The notes under the pieces: generated by a model | Databases searched by the model: none | What the model was told of the DNA's origin: nothing | The model's input: the letters and a program-made list of their open reading frames with translations, nothing else | Program-made: the position numbers and the translations under genes | Source of the DNA: Chloroflexota bacterium | GTDB lineage: Bacteria; Chloroflexota; Dehalococcoidia; GIF9; UBA5629 | NCBI GenBank assembly: GCA_026389715.1 | Contig: JAPLHK010000091.1 | Location: 1-32,807, forward strand | Direction of reading: 5' to 3' | Length of the DNA stretch: 32,807 bases | Shown here: positions 16,530 through 31,705 of the stretch, one piece after another | How positions within the stretch are numbered: the first letter of the stretch is position 1 | How the letters are laid out: each line of letters opens with the position of its first letter

Positions 16530-16667
16530 TGTCCATCGACCTGCAAGGCGGTGAGGCAAAGATCCTATAACTGAATACAAAGTCCGCTTGGATCAGCGAT
16601 GACCGAGACGGTATATACAGGTGACCTGCTGTTGACCTTCTCGGATGCTGCCGAGAAGGTTTTTTTA
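16530..16667 (+). promoter_or_regulatory. Structured 5' leader/attenuator (candidate unassigned riboswitch) upstream of DUF2520-panDBC
   Basis: Possible P1 gtc(c)atcg (16531-16538)/cgatgac (16597-16603); inner stem gatcc/ggatc; possible aag(g)cgg/ccgctt pairing; antiterminator ccgaga (16603-16608) against tctcgg (16639-16644); intrinsic terminator at the end. Confidence 0.55.
16635..16667 (+). terminator. Intrinsic terminator within the leader, 18 bp before the DUF2520 ATG
   Basis: accttctcgg-atgctg-ccgagaaggt followed by a T tract. Confidence 0.9.
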
Positions 16668-16684: not shown

Positions 16685-17653
16685 ATGGGACATATAAAGA
16701 CGACAATAGGATTTATAGGCGCCGGGGTAACCGGCACGGCCCTTGCCTACCAGTTGTGGAGGCAGGGTTACCGCGTCGTTGCCGCGAGCAGCAGGAGCAT
16801 CGCTTCGGCGCAAAGGCTGGCTGCTAAGATTGAGGGCTGCGCGGCCTGCAGTTCGCCCCAGCAGGTGGCCGACCTCGCCCGGGTGGTTTTTATTACCACG
16901 CCCGACGATATCATCGCTGATATAGCTGCCAGGCTGAAATGGCACCCCGGCCAAACCCTTATTCACTGCAGCGGGGTACATTCCACCGATATACTTGAAC
17001 CCGCCCAAAAATACGGGGCCCACGTCTGCTGCCTGCATCCCCTGCAAACATTTGCCGGCATCGATGAGGCCATCAGCAATATCCCGGGCTCAACTTTTGC
17101 CATTGAAGGCGATGATTTCGGGCTATCCCTGGCCCGTCAACTGGCAACCGCACTGCAGGGAAATATCATCGTGCTCAAACCGGGTGACAAGGTGCTGTAT
17201 CACGCGGCGGCGGTTACACTCTCCAACTATCTCGTTACACTGATGAAAACATCCGCCGATCTCTGGCAGTCTTTCGGCATCCCCCGGGAAGAGGCTATTA
17301 AAGCCATGCTCCCCCTGCTCAAAGGCACCGTCAATAATATCGAGCGAGTGGGCATACCCGGCTGCCTGACAGGTCCGATTGCCAGGGGCGATGTTGAAAC
17401 CATACGCAAACATGTCGCCGCCCTGGAAAAAGACCACCCCGACGCCATCGACACCTACCGACTGATGGGACTCAAAACACTGGGTATCGCATTGGCCAGG
17501 GGACATCTCAGCCTTGAAACAGCCGGGGAGATCCGTGACATCTTAGAAGGGCACGGGCAACATATATCTTCTTATTACGATGACCTGTACCGGGAACTCG
17601 GCATCGATTTTAAATCCGAATATTCATCGGCGTCCGCCGACAAATTGATATAG
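16685..17653 (+). CDS. Rossmann-like / DUF2520 domain protein, candidate NAD(P)-dependent reductase of the pan operon
   Basis: TIGFIGAGVTGTALAYQL (GxGxxG), LIHCSGVHSTDIL, CLHPLQTFAG, YHAAAVTLSNYLVTL, LTGPIARGD. Confidence 0.85.
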   Translation: MGHIKTTIGFIGAGVTGTALAYQLWRQGYRVVAASSRSIASAQRLAAKIEGCAACSSPQQVADLARVVFITTPDDIIADIAARLKWHPGQTLIHCSGVHSTDILEPAQKYGAHVCCLHPLQTFAGIDEAISNIPGSTFAIEGDDFGLSLARQLATALQGNIIVLKPGDKVLYHAAAVTLSNYLVTLMKTSADLWQSFGIPREEAIKAMLPLLKGTVNNIERVGIPGCLTGPIARGDVETIRKHVAALEKDHPDAIDTYRLMGLKTLGIALARGHLSLETAGEIRDILEGHGQHISSYYDDLYRELGIDFKSEYSSASADKLI

Positions 17654-17689: not shown

Positions 17690-18088
17690 ATGTCCACCAG
17701 AACTATGTTGAAAAGTAAAATACACAGGGCCAGGGTAACCGATTGCAATATCGATTATGAGGGCAGCGTCACCATAGACAGCGACCTTTTGAAAGCGGCG
17801 GACATCCTTTCTTACGAGCGCGTTGAGATATTGAATGTACATAACGGCGCACGCTTCAGCACATATGCCATCGAGGGTAATCCGGGGTCCGGGGACATAT
17901 GTCTAAACGGGGCCGCGGCAAGGCTGGCCAACAGGGATGACATCGTGATTATCCTTACCTATCACGAGGTCCCCAGCGATGAAGCAGCGCATGTGAAGCC
18001 CAGGATGGTATACGTCGATTCGCATAACCATATCAAGTCGACCAAGAACGTCGATGCCTGGATGGACGATCTGGTAGCTACAAAATAG
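17690..18088 (+). CDS. panD: Aspartate 1-decarboxylase
   Basis: [25 protein letters not shown] (GS self-cleavage site), [30 protein letters not shown] aaggag. Confidence 0.95.
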
Positions 18089-24237: not shown

Positions 24238-25653
24238 TTGGAAGATAAACCCAAATCAAAAATCAATCTCAACCGCGTGGATATGCCCCGGCAGGACCCC
24301 TTGGTCAGGGCACACAATTATAATGAAGTCGCCCTCGGCTACAGCGATGACATGGCCAGGCAGGAGTCCACCCGCTGCATACAATGTCCCAAGCGCCCCT
24401 GCGTAGCCGGCTGCCCGGTAAATGTGGATATACCCGAATTCATCAAAGCTGTCAGGGACAACAATATGCCTGAAGCCGTGAAAATCCTCAAGAGCAAGAA
24501 CGCCCTGCCGGCTATCTGTGGCAGGGTCTGTCCGCAGGAAACCCAGTGTGAACAGGTATGTTCGCTGGGCAAGAAAGGCGCTCCCATTGCCATAGGCCGG
24601 CTTGAGCGCTACGTGGCCGACTGGGACCTCGGCCATAAAGAGTCGGCATCGCCCACACAGGTACCGCCCCCTACCGGGAAAAAAGTGGCGATAATCGGCT
24701 CCGGGCCGGCCGGTCTCACCTGCGCAGCCGACCTGGCCAAGCTCGGCCATAAAGTGACGATGTTTGAGGCCCTGCATACCGCCGGGGGCGTCCTCATGTA
24801 CGGCATACCCGAATTCAGATTGCCCAAGAAAGTGGTCCAGGCTGAAGTAGATTATGTAAAATCACTGGGTGTTGATGTGCAGCTTGATTCCGTGATGGGC
24901 AAACTCGCCACTGTCGACGAGCTGTTAAGCACAGGTTACGCTGCCGTGTTCCTGGGCACCGGCGCCGGGCTACCCATGTTCATGGATATACCGGGCGAAA
25001 ACCTCAACGGCGTCTATTCAGCCAACGAATACCTGACCAGGGTCAACCTGATGAAAGCATACCTCTTCCCGGAATACGACACACCCATAAAGATAGGTAA
25101 GAGGGTCGCGGTTATAGGCGGGGGAAACGTTGCCATGGACAGCGCGCGCTGCGCGCTGAGGTTAGGGGCGGACAAAGTGTATATCGTTTACCGCCGGTCG
25201 CGCGCCGAGATGCCCGCCCGCCATGAGGAAGCCGAGAATGCCGAGGAGGAAGGGATCATCTTTAAGCTCCTCACCAACCCCAAGCAGATCATCGGCGATG
25301 ATAAAGGCTGGGTCAAAGGCATGGAATGTTACGAGATGGAACTGGGTGAACCGGATGCCAGCGGCAGGCGGCGCCCCATCACCAAGCAGGGCAGTGAATT
25401 CATTATGGATGTCGACGTGGTAGTAGTTGCCCTCGGCACCACGCCCAACCCGCTTATCCCTGCCACCACCAAAGGCCTTGAGATCACCAAACGGGGCACC
25501 GTAGTAGCGGACGAACAGAGCGGTAAAACGGTCAAGGATAGGGTATGGGCAGGCGGCGACGTGGTAACAGGGGCAGCAACCGTAATCAGCGCCATGGGCG
25601 CGGGAAAACGGGCAGCGGCCTCAATTCACGCTTTCCTGACGGATCAAAAGTAG
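24238..25653 (+). CDS. NADPH-dependent glutamate synthase small-subunit-like protein (GltA/NfnB type)
   Basis: RCIQCPKRPCVAGCPVNVDIPEFIKAV, ICGRVCPQETQCEQVCSLGKKGAPIAIGRLERYVADW, IIGSGPAGLTCAADLAKLGHKVTMFEAL, VAVIGGGNVAMDSARCALRLGA, VWAGGDVVTGAATVISAMGAGKRAA. Confidence 0.93.
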   Translation: MEDKPKSKINLNRVDMPRQDPLVRAHNYNEVALGYSDDMARQESTRCIQCPKRPCVAGCPVNVDIPEFIKAVRDNNMPEAVKILKSKNALPAICGRVCPQETQCEQVCSLGKKGAPIAIGRLERYVADWDLGHKESASPTQVPPPTGKKVAIIGSGPAGLTCAADLAKLGHKVTMFEALHTAGGVLMYGIPEFRLPKKVVQAEVDYVKSLGVDVQLDSVMGKLATVDELLSTGYAAVFLGTGAGLPMFMDIPGENLNGVYSANEYLTRVNLMKAYLFPEYDTPIKIGKRVAVIGGGNVAMDSARCALRLGADKVYIVYRRSRAEMPARHEEAENAEEEGIIFKLLTNPKQIIGDDKGWVKGMECYEMELGEPDASGRRRPITKQGSEFIMDVDVVVVALGTTPNPLIPATTKGLEITKRGTVVADEQSGKTVKDRVWAGGDVVTGAATVISAMGAGKRAAASIHAFLTDQK

Positions 25654-25708
25654 GGACGGGTCTTTAGACCTGTCCGAAGAGCGGGCGGACATGAATGTCC
25701 GCCCCTAC
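25650..25708. repeat. REP/BIME-like palindromic element, copy B
   Basis: GTAGGGA...CCCCTAC termini; hairpins gacgggtc-ttta-gacctgtc and gggcggacat-ga-atgtccgccc (perfect 10-bp arms). Confidence 0.85.
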
Positions 25709-25733
25709 AGCTTGTATTGGAAGAGCCTATTAG

Positions 25734-25763
25734 TTGACAGTCATACAACATTTTGTTTATTAT
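25734..25763 (+). promoter_or_regulatory. Candidate promoter for the T-box/trpB transcript (TTGACA-N18-TATTAT)
   Basis: TTGACA at 25734-25739 and TATTAT at 25758-25763, just upstream of the T-box stem I. Confidence 0.65.
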
Positions 25764-25779
25764 AAGAACAATTGAATAT

Positions 25780-26056
25780 TTGAAAGGCTGTGAACGGGAA
25801 TAGTAGGTTTCGCAGCGAAGGCTACAGAGAGTCAGAACGGTGAGAGCTGACGCCGGAGCGGAGATTGAATGGACCCGGGAGCCGCAAACCGAAAGAACCT
25901 GGTTCAAGTAGGCTTTGACGCAGGGATAGCGTAATCAGAATCCAGGGTATCGCCGGTAAAATGGCCGTACCTGAAAGAGATGGTTCAGCAATGAACTAAT
26001 TAGGGTGGCACCGCGAAGCTTAGCCTCTCGCCCCTTCGGCGAGAGGCTTATTTTAT
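25780..26056 (+). ncRNA. T-box leader, tRNA-Trp specific (specifier TGG at 25870-25872)
   Basis: Stem I elements (aatagta, cagagagtc, gagattgaaTGGacccgggag), the gtaggctttgacg linker, the T-box motif tAGGGTGGCACCGCGa (26002-26015), and an intrinsic terminator gcctctcgcc-ccttc-ggcgagaggc + T tract (26023-26055). Confidence 0.93.
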
Positions 26057-26074
26057 TATATGGAGGTTTGCAAC

Positions 26075-26119
26075 ATGGTATTTCATATGTGGCCCTGGCG
26101 GGCCGAGAATTTGGTCTGA
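26075..26119 (+). CDS. Candidate Trp leader peptide MVFHMWPWRAENLV
   Basis: SD GGAGGT 8 nt from the ATG; 14 codons with tgg-ccc-tgg. Lies between the T-box terminator and trpB. Confidence 0.6.
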   Translation: MVFHMWPWRAENLV

Positions 26120-26168
26120 TCAACCGTCATAGTGAATTACGCATAAAAATAAATAAAGAGGTAATAAA

Positions 26169-27446
26169 ATGGCTAAAAAATTAACAAAGTTCATTCTCCC
26201 CGAAAAGGACATGCCAACTTCCTGGTATAACATCCTCCCGGATCTGCCGGAGCCTTTGCCTCCGATATTACACCCGCAGACGCATGAACCGACTATCCTG
26301 CCTCCACCCCTGTTCCCCTCCACCCTGAACGACCAGGAATTCAGCAAGGAACATTTCATCGAGATCCCCGACGAGGTTCTGGACGTTTACAAAATGTACC
26401 GCCCGACGCCGCTTATCCGCGCCTACAGGCTGGAGAAGGCCCTTGGCACACCGGCCCAGATATTCTACAAATACGAGGGTGTCAGCCCGGCCGGCAGCCA
26501 CAAACTCAACACCGCCATCGCCCAGGCCTATTACAACAAGAAGGCCGGCCTCAAGCAGGTCAGCTACAACCAGAAGCTTTACCGCCGCATCATGATGGAG
26601 ACCTGGGGCGCCAAGGTCGTTGCCAGTCCCAGTACCGATACCAACTTCGGCAAACAGGTGCTGGCTGAGGACCCCAATTGCCCGGGCAGCCTGGGCATGG
26701 CCATCAGCGAAGCCTGCGAGGACGCCTTCAGCCGCGATGACACCAGCTACTCTCTCGGCAGCGTATTGAACCACGTCATATTGCACCAGTCCATAATCGG
26801 ACTTGAGACCAAGAAGCAGCTGGAAATGGCCGACGTCGAAGCCGACATCATCATCGGCTGCGTGGGCGGCGGCAGCAATTTCGGCGGACTGGCCGTCCCC
26901 TTCGTAAAGGACAAGATGAAGGGCAAGAAGATAGAGATCATTGCCGTCGAGCCCACCGCCTGCCCCAGCATGACCAAGGGACCGCTGGCCTGGGACTTAG
27001 GCGATGTGGCGGGCATGGCCCCGATCGTCATGATGTACACGCTCGGCCATTCATTCATCCCGTCACCCATCCACGCAGGCGGCCTTCGCTACCACGGCAT
27101 GTCGCCGCTGGTATCCCACCTGCACAAACTCAAGTTGATCGACGCCAGGGCAGTAAACCAGAAGGCCACATTCGAGAGTGCGATCCAGTTCGCCCGCACC
27201 GAGGGCATTATACCGGCCCCCGAACCATCCCATGCTATCAAGGTCACCATCGACGAAGCCCTCAAATGCAAGGAGTCCGGGCAGAAGAAGGTCATCGTCC
27301 TGGGACTCAGCGGACACGGCCATTTCGACCTGAGCGCCTACGAGCAGTTCCTCTCCGGTAAACTGGAGGCCGACGCCTACGATGAAGCTAAGGTGAAACA
27401 GGCGCTGGCGCAGCTTCCCAAGATAGATTATGTAGCACCCAAATAA
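26169..27446 (+). CDS. trpB: Tryptophan synthase beta chain, TrpB2 type, with an apparent in-frame internal deletion
   Basis: [110 protein letters not shown] is joined directly to [11 protein letters not shown]; the expected ETGAGQWG segment is absent. Confidence 0.9.
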
Positions 27447-28760: not shown

Positions 28761-31705
28761 CTAAGGCTCCTGTTTGCGGATAGCCAGTGTTACCTCAATA
28801 CCCGAGAGTTTAAATTTTTCTGTGCGGGCTACCTCAGCGGGGATTCCCTTTAACAATGCAACCGACAATGTCTCCTGCTGTATATAATCCGCGAATGCTG
28901 CCATCACGTTATCTACCTGGTCATTGCCCAGATAATTGGTAGTGATATGGTCCGCGATCTCCAGGCCAGCCGACCGCCTCATGGTCTGAACGCGCCTGAC
29001 TATTTCCCTGGCAAGGCCTTCCTGCAACAGTTCGGGGGTTATCTCTGTCACCACACCCACCTGGTAATCTCCGTCAACAGCAACGGACATCGCCTTACCT
29101 TCTTTCAATTCTTCAGATGTGAATTCGATATCTTTAACATTCAATTCATCAAGGATTTGAGAACACAAATTCTTCAGCGCTTCCTGCTCATGCGCCGACC
29201 TTGCCTTGACTACCACCCTGGGCAGCGGTTGCCTGACCTTTACAGCGCTCTTGGACCTGGCTGCCCGCCCCATGCTGCAGATTTTCATCGCCAACTCTGT
29301 ATCTTCGATGATAACTGCGTTAATTAAATCCCTGTCGGCTACGGGGAATGAGACAAGATGCACGCTTTCCGGCGCTTTGCCGTCCACGCTCCGCACCAGG
29401 TTTTGATACATCTCATCGGCAACAAACGGGATGAACGGCGCCAGCAATTTTGAAAGGGTCACCAGCGTTTGATAAAGGCAATTGTACGCGGACAGCTTAT
29501 CGTCGTCGTTCTGACTCTTCCAGAAACGTCTCCTGCTTCGCCTCACATACCAGTTGGAAAGGTCGCTGACGAAAGATTCGATCTTACGTCCTGCCGTAGT
29601 CGGGTCATAATTAGCCAGCAGTTCATCCACATCTAAGACTAATTGATTTAACCTTGACATCAGCCATTTGTCGAGTTCCGAAGTCAACGAAACGGGTTGA
29701 GTACCGGGGATAAAATTATCGATATTGGCATATATAACAAAAAAAGAATAGGTATTCCAGAGGGTCATGAGGAAATTACGCATTACTTCGACAACCATAT
29801 CGGGTGACATGCGGCGCACATTACCGGGAGGCCCTGAGGTAAACATATACCACCTGAGCGCGTCTGCGCCGGAAGAATCCAGGACTGTCCAGGGATCAAC
29901 CACGTTACCGCGGGTCTTGCTCATTTTCTCACCCTCGGCATCCAGTATATGTCCCAGGCAGATGACATTCTTATAGCAAGGCTGTCCGAATACCAGGGTC
30001 GATATGGCATGCAGGCTATAGAACCAACCCCTGGTCTGGTCGACTGCTTCCGATATATAATCCGCCGGAAAGCTTTCTTTGAATTTGCTGTCATTCTCAA
30101 AAGGATAATGCCACTGGGCAAAAGGCATGGCGCCCGAGTCGAACCAGCAGTCGATAACCTCAGTCTGGCGGGCCATCTTTCCGCCGCACTCCGGGCAATC
30201 GTAGCTAATATCATCAACGTAGGGACGGTGCAGGTCCATATCCCCGGCAAATCCCTTTAACCCCTTCCTGGCCTTTATCTCGTCTAAACCACCCAGGCAC
30301 TCAAAGTGATTGCAGTTTTCGCAATTCCAGATATTTAGCGGTGTGCCCCAGTATCTCTCCCTTGAAAAAGCCCAATCCACGTTATTCTGCAGCCAATCAC
30401 CAAAACGGCCTTCCTTTATGTGTTCGGGATACCAGTTGATCTGCCGGTTCCCTGCGATCATCTCGTCCTTTTTGGCGGAAGTCCTGATATACCATGTCTT
30501 CTTGGCATAGTAAACCAGCGGCGCATCACACCGCCAGCAGAAAGGATAGGTATGGGTAATCTTACCGCTTTTATGCAGCAAACCCCTCCTGTCTAAATCT
30601 GCAAGCACCTCAGGGTCCGCTGCCTTAACAAATTTCCCCGAGAACGGATATGTACCGGTTATATTACCGCTGAGATCAACCTGCTGAACAAAGTCCAGGT
30701 TATGCTCAAGACCCGCCAGGAAATCCACTTCACCGAAGGCGGGTGCTATGTTGACTATGCCCGTCCCATCTTCCAGAGATACGATATCAGCAGTGATTAC
30801 TTTATAGGTCAGGTGAGCATCAGGTTCCTGGATATCGAATTGCCCCGGTTGTCCCTCGCGGGCACGTTTCCGCTCCACGTTGAACTCATGCGGATTGAAA
30901 AGAGGAATATATAGGGACCCGGTCAATTGGCTGCCTTTGATGGTTTTTAATACAGGCCTATCCCCAATCCCGGCTTGCTCCATCAAAGCTCTGGCAAATA
31001 CCAGGAAGTCACCCTGGTACTCTATCACGGCATAGTCGGCATCCGCAGCCAGTGCGAGCGACGTGTTGCCGGGCAACGTCCAGGGCGTCGTCGTCCAGGC
31101 CAGAAAATAGGCCTTGCCATCTGAAACAGCTTTGCTTAGGGAAAAGCCCGGCGATTTTTCCCCGGCAATTTCCGCAGGAAGCGCCTTTATCTGAAACTTA
31201 ATATAGACCGATGGATCGACAGTGTCATCCTTATATCCCAGCGCAACTTCGTGCGAGCTTAGTGACGTCCCGCACCTGGGGCAATGGGGGGTGACTTTAT
31301 ATCCCTGATATATCAACCCTCGAGATATTTGAAGACGCTTTCGCGGCAGAGGGCATTAAATTTCGCCACGCCGTAACTTTCAATCTGCGCTTTACCGGTG
31401 AATCCCAGTTGCTTTTCGACCTCGAGTTCCACCGGTAACCCGTGAGTATCCCAGCCAGCCTTCCTGGGCACACAAAACCCTTTCATGGTCTTATAGCGTG
31501 GAATAACGTCCTTGAAAACCCTCGACAACACGTGATGTATGCCGGGGTTACCATTGGCAGTGGGCGGACCCTCGTAAAAAATGTATTTAGGGGAAGAACT
31601 CCTGGCCTCAATGCTTTTTTCAAAGATGCGGTTAGCACGCCAGAATTCGAGTATTTTCCTTTCAATTTCGGGGAAACTGACTTTGCTGTTTACAGGCTGG
31701 AACAT
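28761..31705 (-). pseudogene. ileS: Isoleucyl-tRNA synthetase, split in two frames with an internal segment missing near 31313-31320
   Basis: N-part (31313-31705): YEGPPTANGNPGIHHVLSRVFKDVIPRYKTMKGF...GWDTHGLPVELEVEKQLG...FNALCRESVFKYLEG*. C-part (28761-31316): (GL)IYQGYKVTPHCPRCGTSLSSHEVALGYKD...KMSKTRGNVVDP. The two are out of frame. Confidence 0.9.

Follow-up and report, generated by a model that had tools for sequence, protein, structure and literature searches.

A conserved leader ORF with a hairpin-based Trp codon upstream of trpB2: a putative second tryptophan sensor behind a T-box

The T-box and the leader ORF upstream of trpB2

Why should a tryptophan biosynthesis gene that lies behind a Trp-specific T-box also have, between the T-box terminator and its own start, a short ORF with Trp codons? 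The question arises in the window analysed here, a stretch of 32,807 nucleotides from the Dehalococcoidia MAG G000 (2.02 Mb in 120 contigs), whose nearest named relatives are Dehalococcoidia and Chloroflexi MAGs. The gene is a trpB of the TrpB2 type, as judged by profile matches to NF009057 and TIGR01415. The T-box in front of it reaches 105.6 bits with the RF00230 model, for which the gathering score is 93, and its specifier codon, read from the alignment, is UGG, matching the regulated amino acid; it is the only T-box found in the whole G000 genome. T-boxes are known in Dehalococcoides at trpE and at a trpB-like gene (Wels et al. 2008, PMC2494555). The window T-box shares its kind, the kind of gene and the bacterial class with these, while that paper does not mention a leader peptide.

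The leader ORF noticed at this place in a first-pass annotation was confirmed, as was its frame, which is not that of trpB2 (offset 94, i.e. +1, between the two starts; Table 1). The spacing of eight nucleotides given there between GGAGGT and the ATG holds only when it is counted from GGAGG, the distance from GGAGGT to the ATG at 26075 being 7 nt, and the gap to trpB2, given as 50 nt, is 49 nt from the leader stop to the ATG at 26169.

Table 1. Features of the leader region in the window
Feature	Position	Strand	Basis
Trp-specific T-box	25781..26038	+	RF00230 match; specifier UGG in GAAUGGACCCGGGAGC
Intrinsic terminator of the T-box	26022..26048	+	11-pair stem, T-rich tail
Shine-Dalgarno sequence (SD) of the leader ORF, GGAGGT	26062..26067	+	Read directly; GGAGG recurrent among relatives
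Leader ORF MVFHMWPWRAENLV and stop	26075..26119	+	Translation; about 45 leaders with an orthologous W-P ORF
Conserved Trp codon UGG, 5' base of hairpin	26090..26092	+	Frame shared with leader ATG in 36/37 leaders
Hairpin GGCCC-UGGC-GGGCC, including Trp codon	26091..26104	+	Arms conserved among leaders; compensatory variants seen
Second Trp codon, in hairpin loop, not conserved	26096..26098	+	Loops variable among leaders
A+U-rich spacer to trpB2 SD	26105..26157	+	Low G+C over the leader set
trpB2 (TrpB-like, TIGR01415), with 93-nt in-frame deletion at 26555/26556	26169..27446	+	Profile matches; comparison with relatives

Conservation and distribution of the UGG hairpin leader

We gathered trpB2 leaders from public genomes and searched them with a strict detector, consisting of an SD, an ATG and an in-frame TGG that opens a G+C hairpin. 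It picked up the element in 33 of the 97 trpB2 leaders; the corresponding figure for control windows was 11 of 1705. About 45 leaders share a conserved core, in which an SD and an ATG are followed, after five to eight codons, by a TGG at the base, on the 5' side, of a short G+C hairpin. Counts by frame in a later collection of 186 leaders were 43 in frame versus 5 and 5. When the TGG-hairpin and the SD-ATG were each located without using the frame, the TGG was in frame with the ATG in 36 of 37 leaders, although the distance between the two was 15, 18, 21 or 24 nt (binomial p 2e-16, a value that ignores kinship among leaders); in the sole exception, L020, an in-frame GTG serves as start. Conservation of an in-frame UGG argues for reading of the codon by the ribosome, and ribosomal sensing of this Trp codon appears well supported by the comparison. 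The first-pass annotation had proposed that a biosynthetic gene is served here by two Trp signals on one transcript, a Trp T-box and, after it, a leader ORF with Trp codons. It had named absence of the SD, the ORF or the Trp codon from relatives as grounds for refutation, and the comparison came out in its favour.

The annotation had also stressed the pair of Trp codons (W-P-W), but only the first is conserved, the second lying in a variable loop. More than one W occurs in 15 of the 45 leader ORFs, with just one conserved UGG. The residue following this Trp is Pro, save where the stem sequence differs, and from one to 21 codons separate the W from the stop, which may fall anywhere from one codon past the TGG to the start of trpB2. 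The consensus hairpin is TGGCCC-N3-7-GGGCC, with A or G as the next base in 37 of 45 leaders. Its arms show compensatory variants, GGCGCC/GGCGCC in L024, L028 and L034 and GGCCA/UGGCC in L062, while the loops vary (GTTG, GGCG, GGCA, TAGA and others). In L059, judged by eye, the TGG has become the stop TGA and the arms have changed together to GACC/GGTC, so that the hairpin is kept and the Trp codon lost. No U-tract follows the leader hairpins, and no Rfam 15 family was found at the leader, at gathering in the window or at E <=0.01 in 15 loci that carry it. MAFFT misaligned the variable SD-ATG spacing, so the leaders were compared by pattern and by frame and not through a covariance model.

Between hairpin and gene lies a spacer with a mean G+C of 0.27 over the leader set, the median distance from hairpin to start being 62 nt. 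In the window, the simple form of the hairpin has a predicted probability of only about 0.01, and its 3' arm prefers a downstream GGUC. This GGUCU partner is kept in L001-L004 and L025 and is not conserved outside the window's genus, within which the alternative fold, as modelled, may matter. A different RNA switch, pairing gagaat with attctc in the 5' end of trpB2, had been suggested in the annotation; it fails in relatives such as L003, where attctc is absent from that position.

A pattern scan over the whole of 393 genomes of the class yielded 35 matches, spread over 33 genomes, and the reversed control pattern gave one. Where the gene after a match with A+T-rich flanks was readable, it was trpB2 or, at L226 and L233, a TrpX-like gene; the other matches, in G+C-rich surroundings, look like chance hits inside coding sequence. 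At L226 and L233 the leader is placed behind a Trp T-box and before a TrpX-like gene for a tryptophan ABC transporter substrate-binding protein, identified by NF041285 at 1e-70 to 1e-74, which is below the curated cut-off. L233 has extra sequence between leader and gene. G341 has two copies of trpB2, each with a leader. Confinement of the leader to trp genes is supported by these positions. On a FastTree TrpB2 tree, about 14 changes are needed to account for leader presence and absence; deep branches, Atribacterota and Spirochaetota among them, have the W-type leader, and many trpB2 leaders, a good many of them behind a T-box, have no such ORF.

The specifier could be checked in 39 of the T-boxes with a leader, and it is UGG in every one (36 by pattern, three by eye). 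An Rfam search found no T-box at the leader-bearing loci L106, L034, L024, L041, L060, L064 and L234 (the L029 locus). At L106, in G011, the leader lies between trpA and trpB2, and some 6 kb before it the contig has a T-box, directly in front of a trpE that has no leader of its own. The gene order at L034 is trpB-trpA-leader-trpB2, and L029 is a further example of a T-box-free or mid-operon leader. L064 belongs to a spirochaete genome, G405, in which no T-box was found at all. A possible classical trp attenuator, with an ORF ending in IEWRRANSS and a stop and with terminator-like repeats, is seen at L064 no more than 700 nt upstream of trpB2 and 5' of the TGG-hairpin leader. By its occurrence without a T-box and in mid-operon between trpA and trpB2, the leader element is independent of the T-box, and the idea that it forms part of the T-box unit is not supported. 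We also considered whether codon-hairpin leaders are general behind T-boxes, and found none behind other T-boxes in two T-box-rich Atribacteria genomes: on inspection, about 20 of these had no comparable leader downstream, while the trpB2 T-box (L281) has one.

In 14 leaders (L008, L009, L010, L011, L013, L015, L042, L107, L120, L122, L127, L134, L219, L221) the same site is occupied by an SD, an ATG and an immediate stop, for example AUG-UAG, located 48-69 nt upstream of trpB2 and often just after trpA. Two-codon versions (MF, ML or MN before the stop) were seen behind T-boxes in other genomes of the class. When a short ORF at this site is longer than two codons, it almost always has a TGG, which is nearly always in frame at the hairpin base. 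The start-stop ORFs fit a constant 'ribosome present' state, and fit a non-sensing role too.

Possible modes of action of the leader

The leader looks like a second, largely undescribed Trp sensor, and a search of open-licence papers found no prior description of a UGG-hairpin leader. In Bacillus subtilis, the rtpA/yczA (anti-TRAP) operon has a T-box and a Trp leader peptide in tandem (Chen and Yanofsky 2003, 2004, as cited in PMC11255114), and the parts follow in the order Trp T-box, Trp-codon leader ORF and gene, with charging of tRNA-Trp read twice. In the window and its relatives, a Trp-codon leader ORF likewise stands between T-box terminator and gene. In place of several Trp codons (three in the rtpA leader), however, these leaders have one conserved UGG built into a hairpin; they have no fixed overlap of stop and SD, the 49 nt of the window varying in relatives; and they precede trpB2 or trpX, in some genomes with no T-box or between trpA and trpB2. 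Classical trp attenuators (E. coli trpL and the actinobacterial trp leaders, PMC1262725) also have one or more Trp codons in a short ORF and in the 5' arm of a hairpin. They differ from the present leaders, which lack a terminator with a U-tract, mostly have a single Trp codon and in many cases stand after another attenuator or in mid-operon; no intrinsic terminator competing with the leader hairpin was found in 25650-26250, where the T-box terminator is the only terminator-like site. The actinobacterial cys leader peptides (PMC1262725) resemble them in being ORFs with regulatory codons and no recognisable terminator, but concern another amino acid and have no conserved hairpin on the regulatory codon.

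The chances seem to us about even that the leader senses Trp through a ribosome, as a device distinct from the T-box, and acts through shielding of the spacer upstream of the gene. The leader would be entered once the T-box lets RNA polymerase pass or, in other genomes, within a trp operon. A ribosome would load at the strong SD and meet the single UGG five to eight codons on. We infer that, when Trp-tRNA is scarce, the ribosome would be parked there and hold the UGG hairpin open, and that, when Trp-tRNA is plentiful, it would advance, the hairpin would shut and the A+U-rich spacer upstream of trpB2 would be left free of ribosomes. A ribosome parked about 60-80 nt upstream could keep expression of trpB2 (or trpX) up by shielding the spacer from RNase or Rho, rather than by uncovering an SD, and the AUG-UAG mini-ORFs could be a fixed 'ribosome present' version of the same arrangement.

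Spacer shielding was chosen as the putative output after other outputs had been considered. Relief of a sequestered trpB2 SD by the stalled ribosome was rejected, the modelled change in accessibility being negligible and in the wrong direction, from 0.60 (0.595) in the free leader to 0.58 (0.580) with a stalled ribosome. The leader hairpin was also rejected as an intrinsic terminator, for want of a U-tract, and a nascent-peptide arrest of the TnaC type was judged unlikely, only five to eight variable residues preceding the Trp. The stable SD accessibility, the variable stop and the lack of a U-tract terminator together leave an effect via occupancy of leader and spacer, whether by shielding from decay or Rho or by coupling. 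Rho and RNase Y are both present in G000. Rho was not detected in the leader-bearing G301 (91% complete), nor was a full RNase Y in the leader-bearing G306 (95% complete) or G406; with each of them absent or incomplete in some MAGs that have the leader, neither can be taken as a universal or required partner.

Among the alternatives, it is conceivable, if unlikely, that the ORF senses nothing and merely holds a ribosome on the mRNA, for coupling, reinitiation or stability. The start-stop mini-ORFs, which have no Trp codon, favour this role, whereas the TGG of nearly all longer ORFs and the restriction of the wider matches to trp genes argue against it. Less likely again is a ribosome-dependent transcription attenuation, in which the UGG hairpin would be strand 1:2 and a stall would free its 3' arm for downstream pairing. 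Such a scheme would suit the Trp codon in the 5' arm, like that of E. coli trpL, and the GGUCU partner in the window's genus. That partner is lost beyond the genus, however, no U-tract terminator follows the leader hairpin, and most cases already have a transcription attenuator, the T-box.

We consider distinctly improbable an rtpA-type control, the analogy raised in the annotation, in which a ribosome finishing the leader ORF would hinder initiation at trpB2 and a stall at the UGG would relieve the block. The order of parts is that of rtpA, and four leaders (L024, L028, L029 and L034) have their stop close to or at the SD or start of trpB2. The window stop lies farther upstream, however, and those of L062, L093, L095 and L101 come one codon past the Pro that follows the UGG, which leaves some 60-70 nt or more to the start. 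Since stop position is this variable, SD accessibility does not respond to the stall and the gagaat/attctc pairing fails in relatives, blocking of the SD is unlikely. A chance ORF or functionless inherited sequence is scarcely credible: short ORFs are common and some relatives lack the leader, but the frame test, the control windows, the compensatory hairpin changes and the deep spread on the TrpB2 tree all speak against it.

Returning to the ribosome-read sensor, we suggest tentatively, with the balance tipped slightly against so full a description, that these sequences make up a largely undescribed class of Trp leader. Its mark would be a single UGG, read in frame and forming the base of a short G+C hairpin; it would give ribosome-read control of trpB2 or trpX after antitermination in several phyla, would alternate with AUG-stop ORFs, could set one gene of an operon apart, and would act through spacer occupancy, not terminator or SD switching. 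If this is true, double reading of tRNA-Trp on one transcript is no peculiarity of Bacillus anti-TRAP but is met with again, in different phyla, at genes for biosynthesis and for transport. The part read by the ribosome could then stand alone, even in mid-operon, where it would set trpB2 apart, and one regulatory codon in a short hairpin, with neither a terminator nor an SD switch, would have an output outside the existing models of leader peptides.

State of trpB2 and other features of the contig

Compared with L002 and the other relatives examined, the trpB2 of the window has a clean in-frame deletion of 93 nt, with no obvious direct repeat at the joint. The 31 missing residues include a segment, TETGAGQWG, that is present in relatives and that we take to hold the catalytic Glu. 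On the same contig, ileS (28761-31705, minus strand) is split: its N-terminal part (profile 3-126) lies at 31313-31705, the remainder (profile from 169) is in another frame, and about 42 residues are missing between the two. Two faults in essential-type genes on one contig suggest an assembly error, and the trpB2 deletion is probably either an assembly fault or the mark of a dead copy. Elsewhere in the window, a pan motif (RF01749) was found at 16531-16615 with 37.3 bits, just above threshold; downstream of it are an ORF at 16685-17653 with weak matches to reductases and dehydrogenases, and panD (17690-18088).
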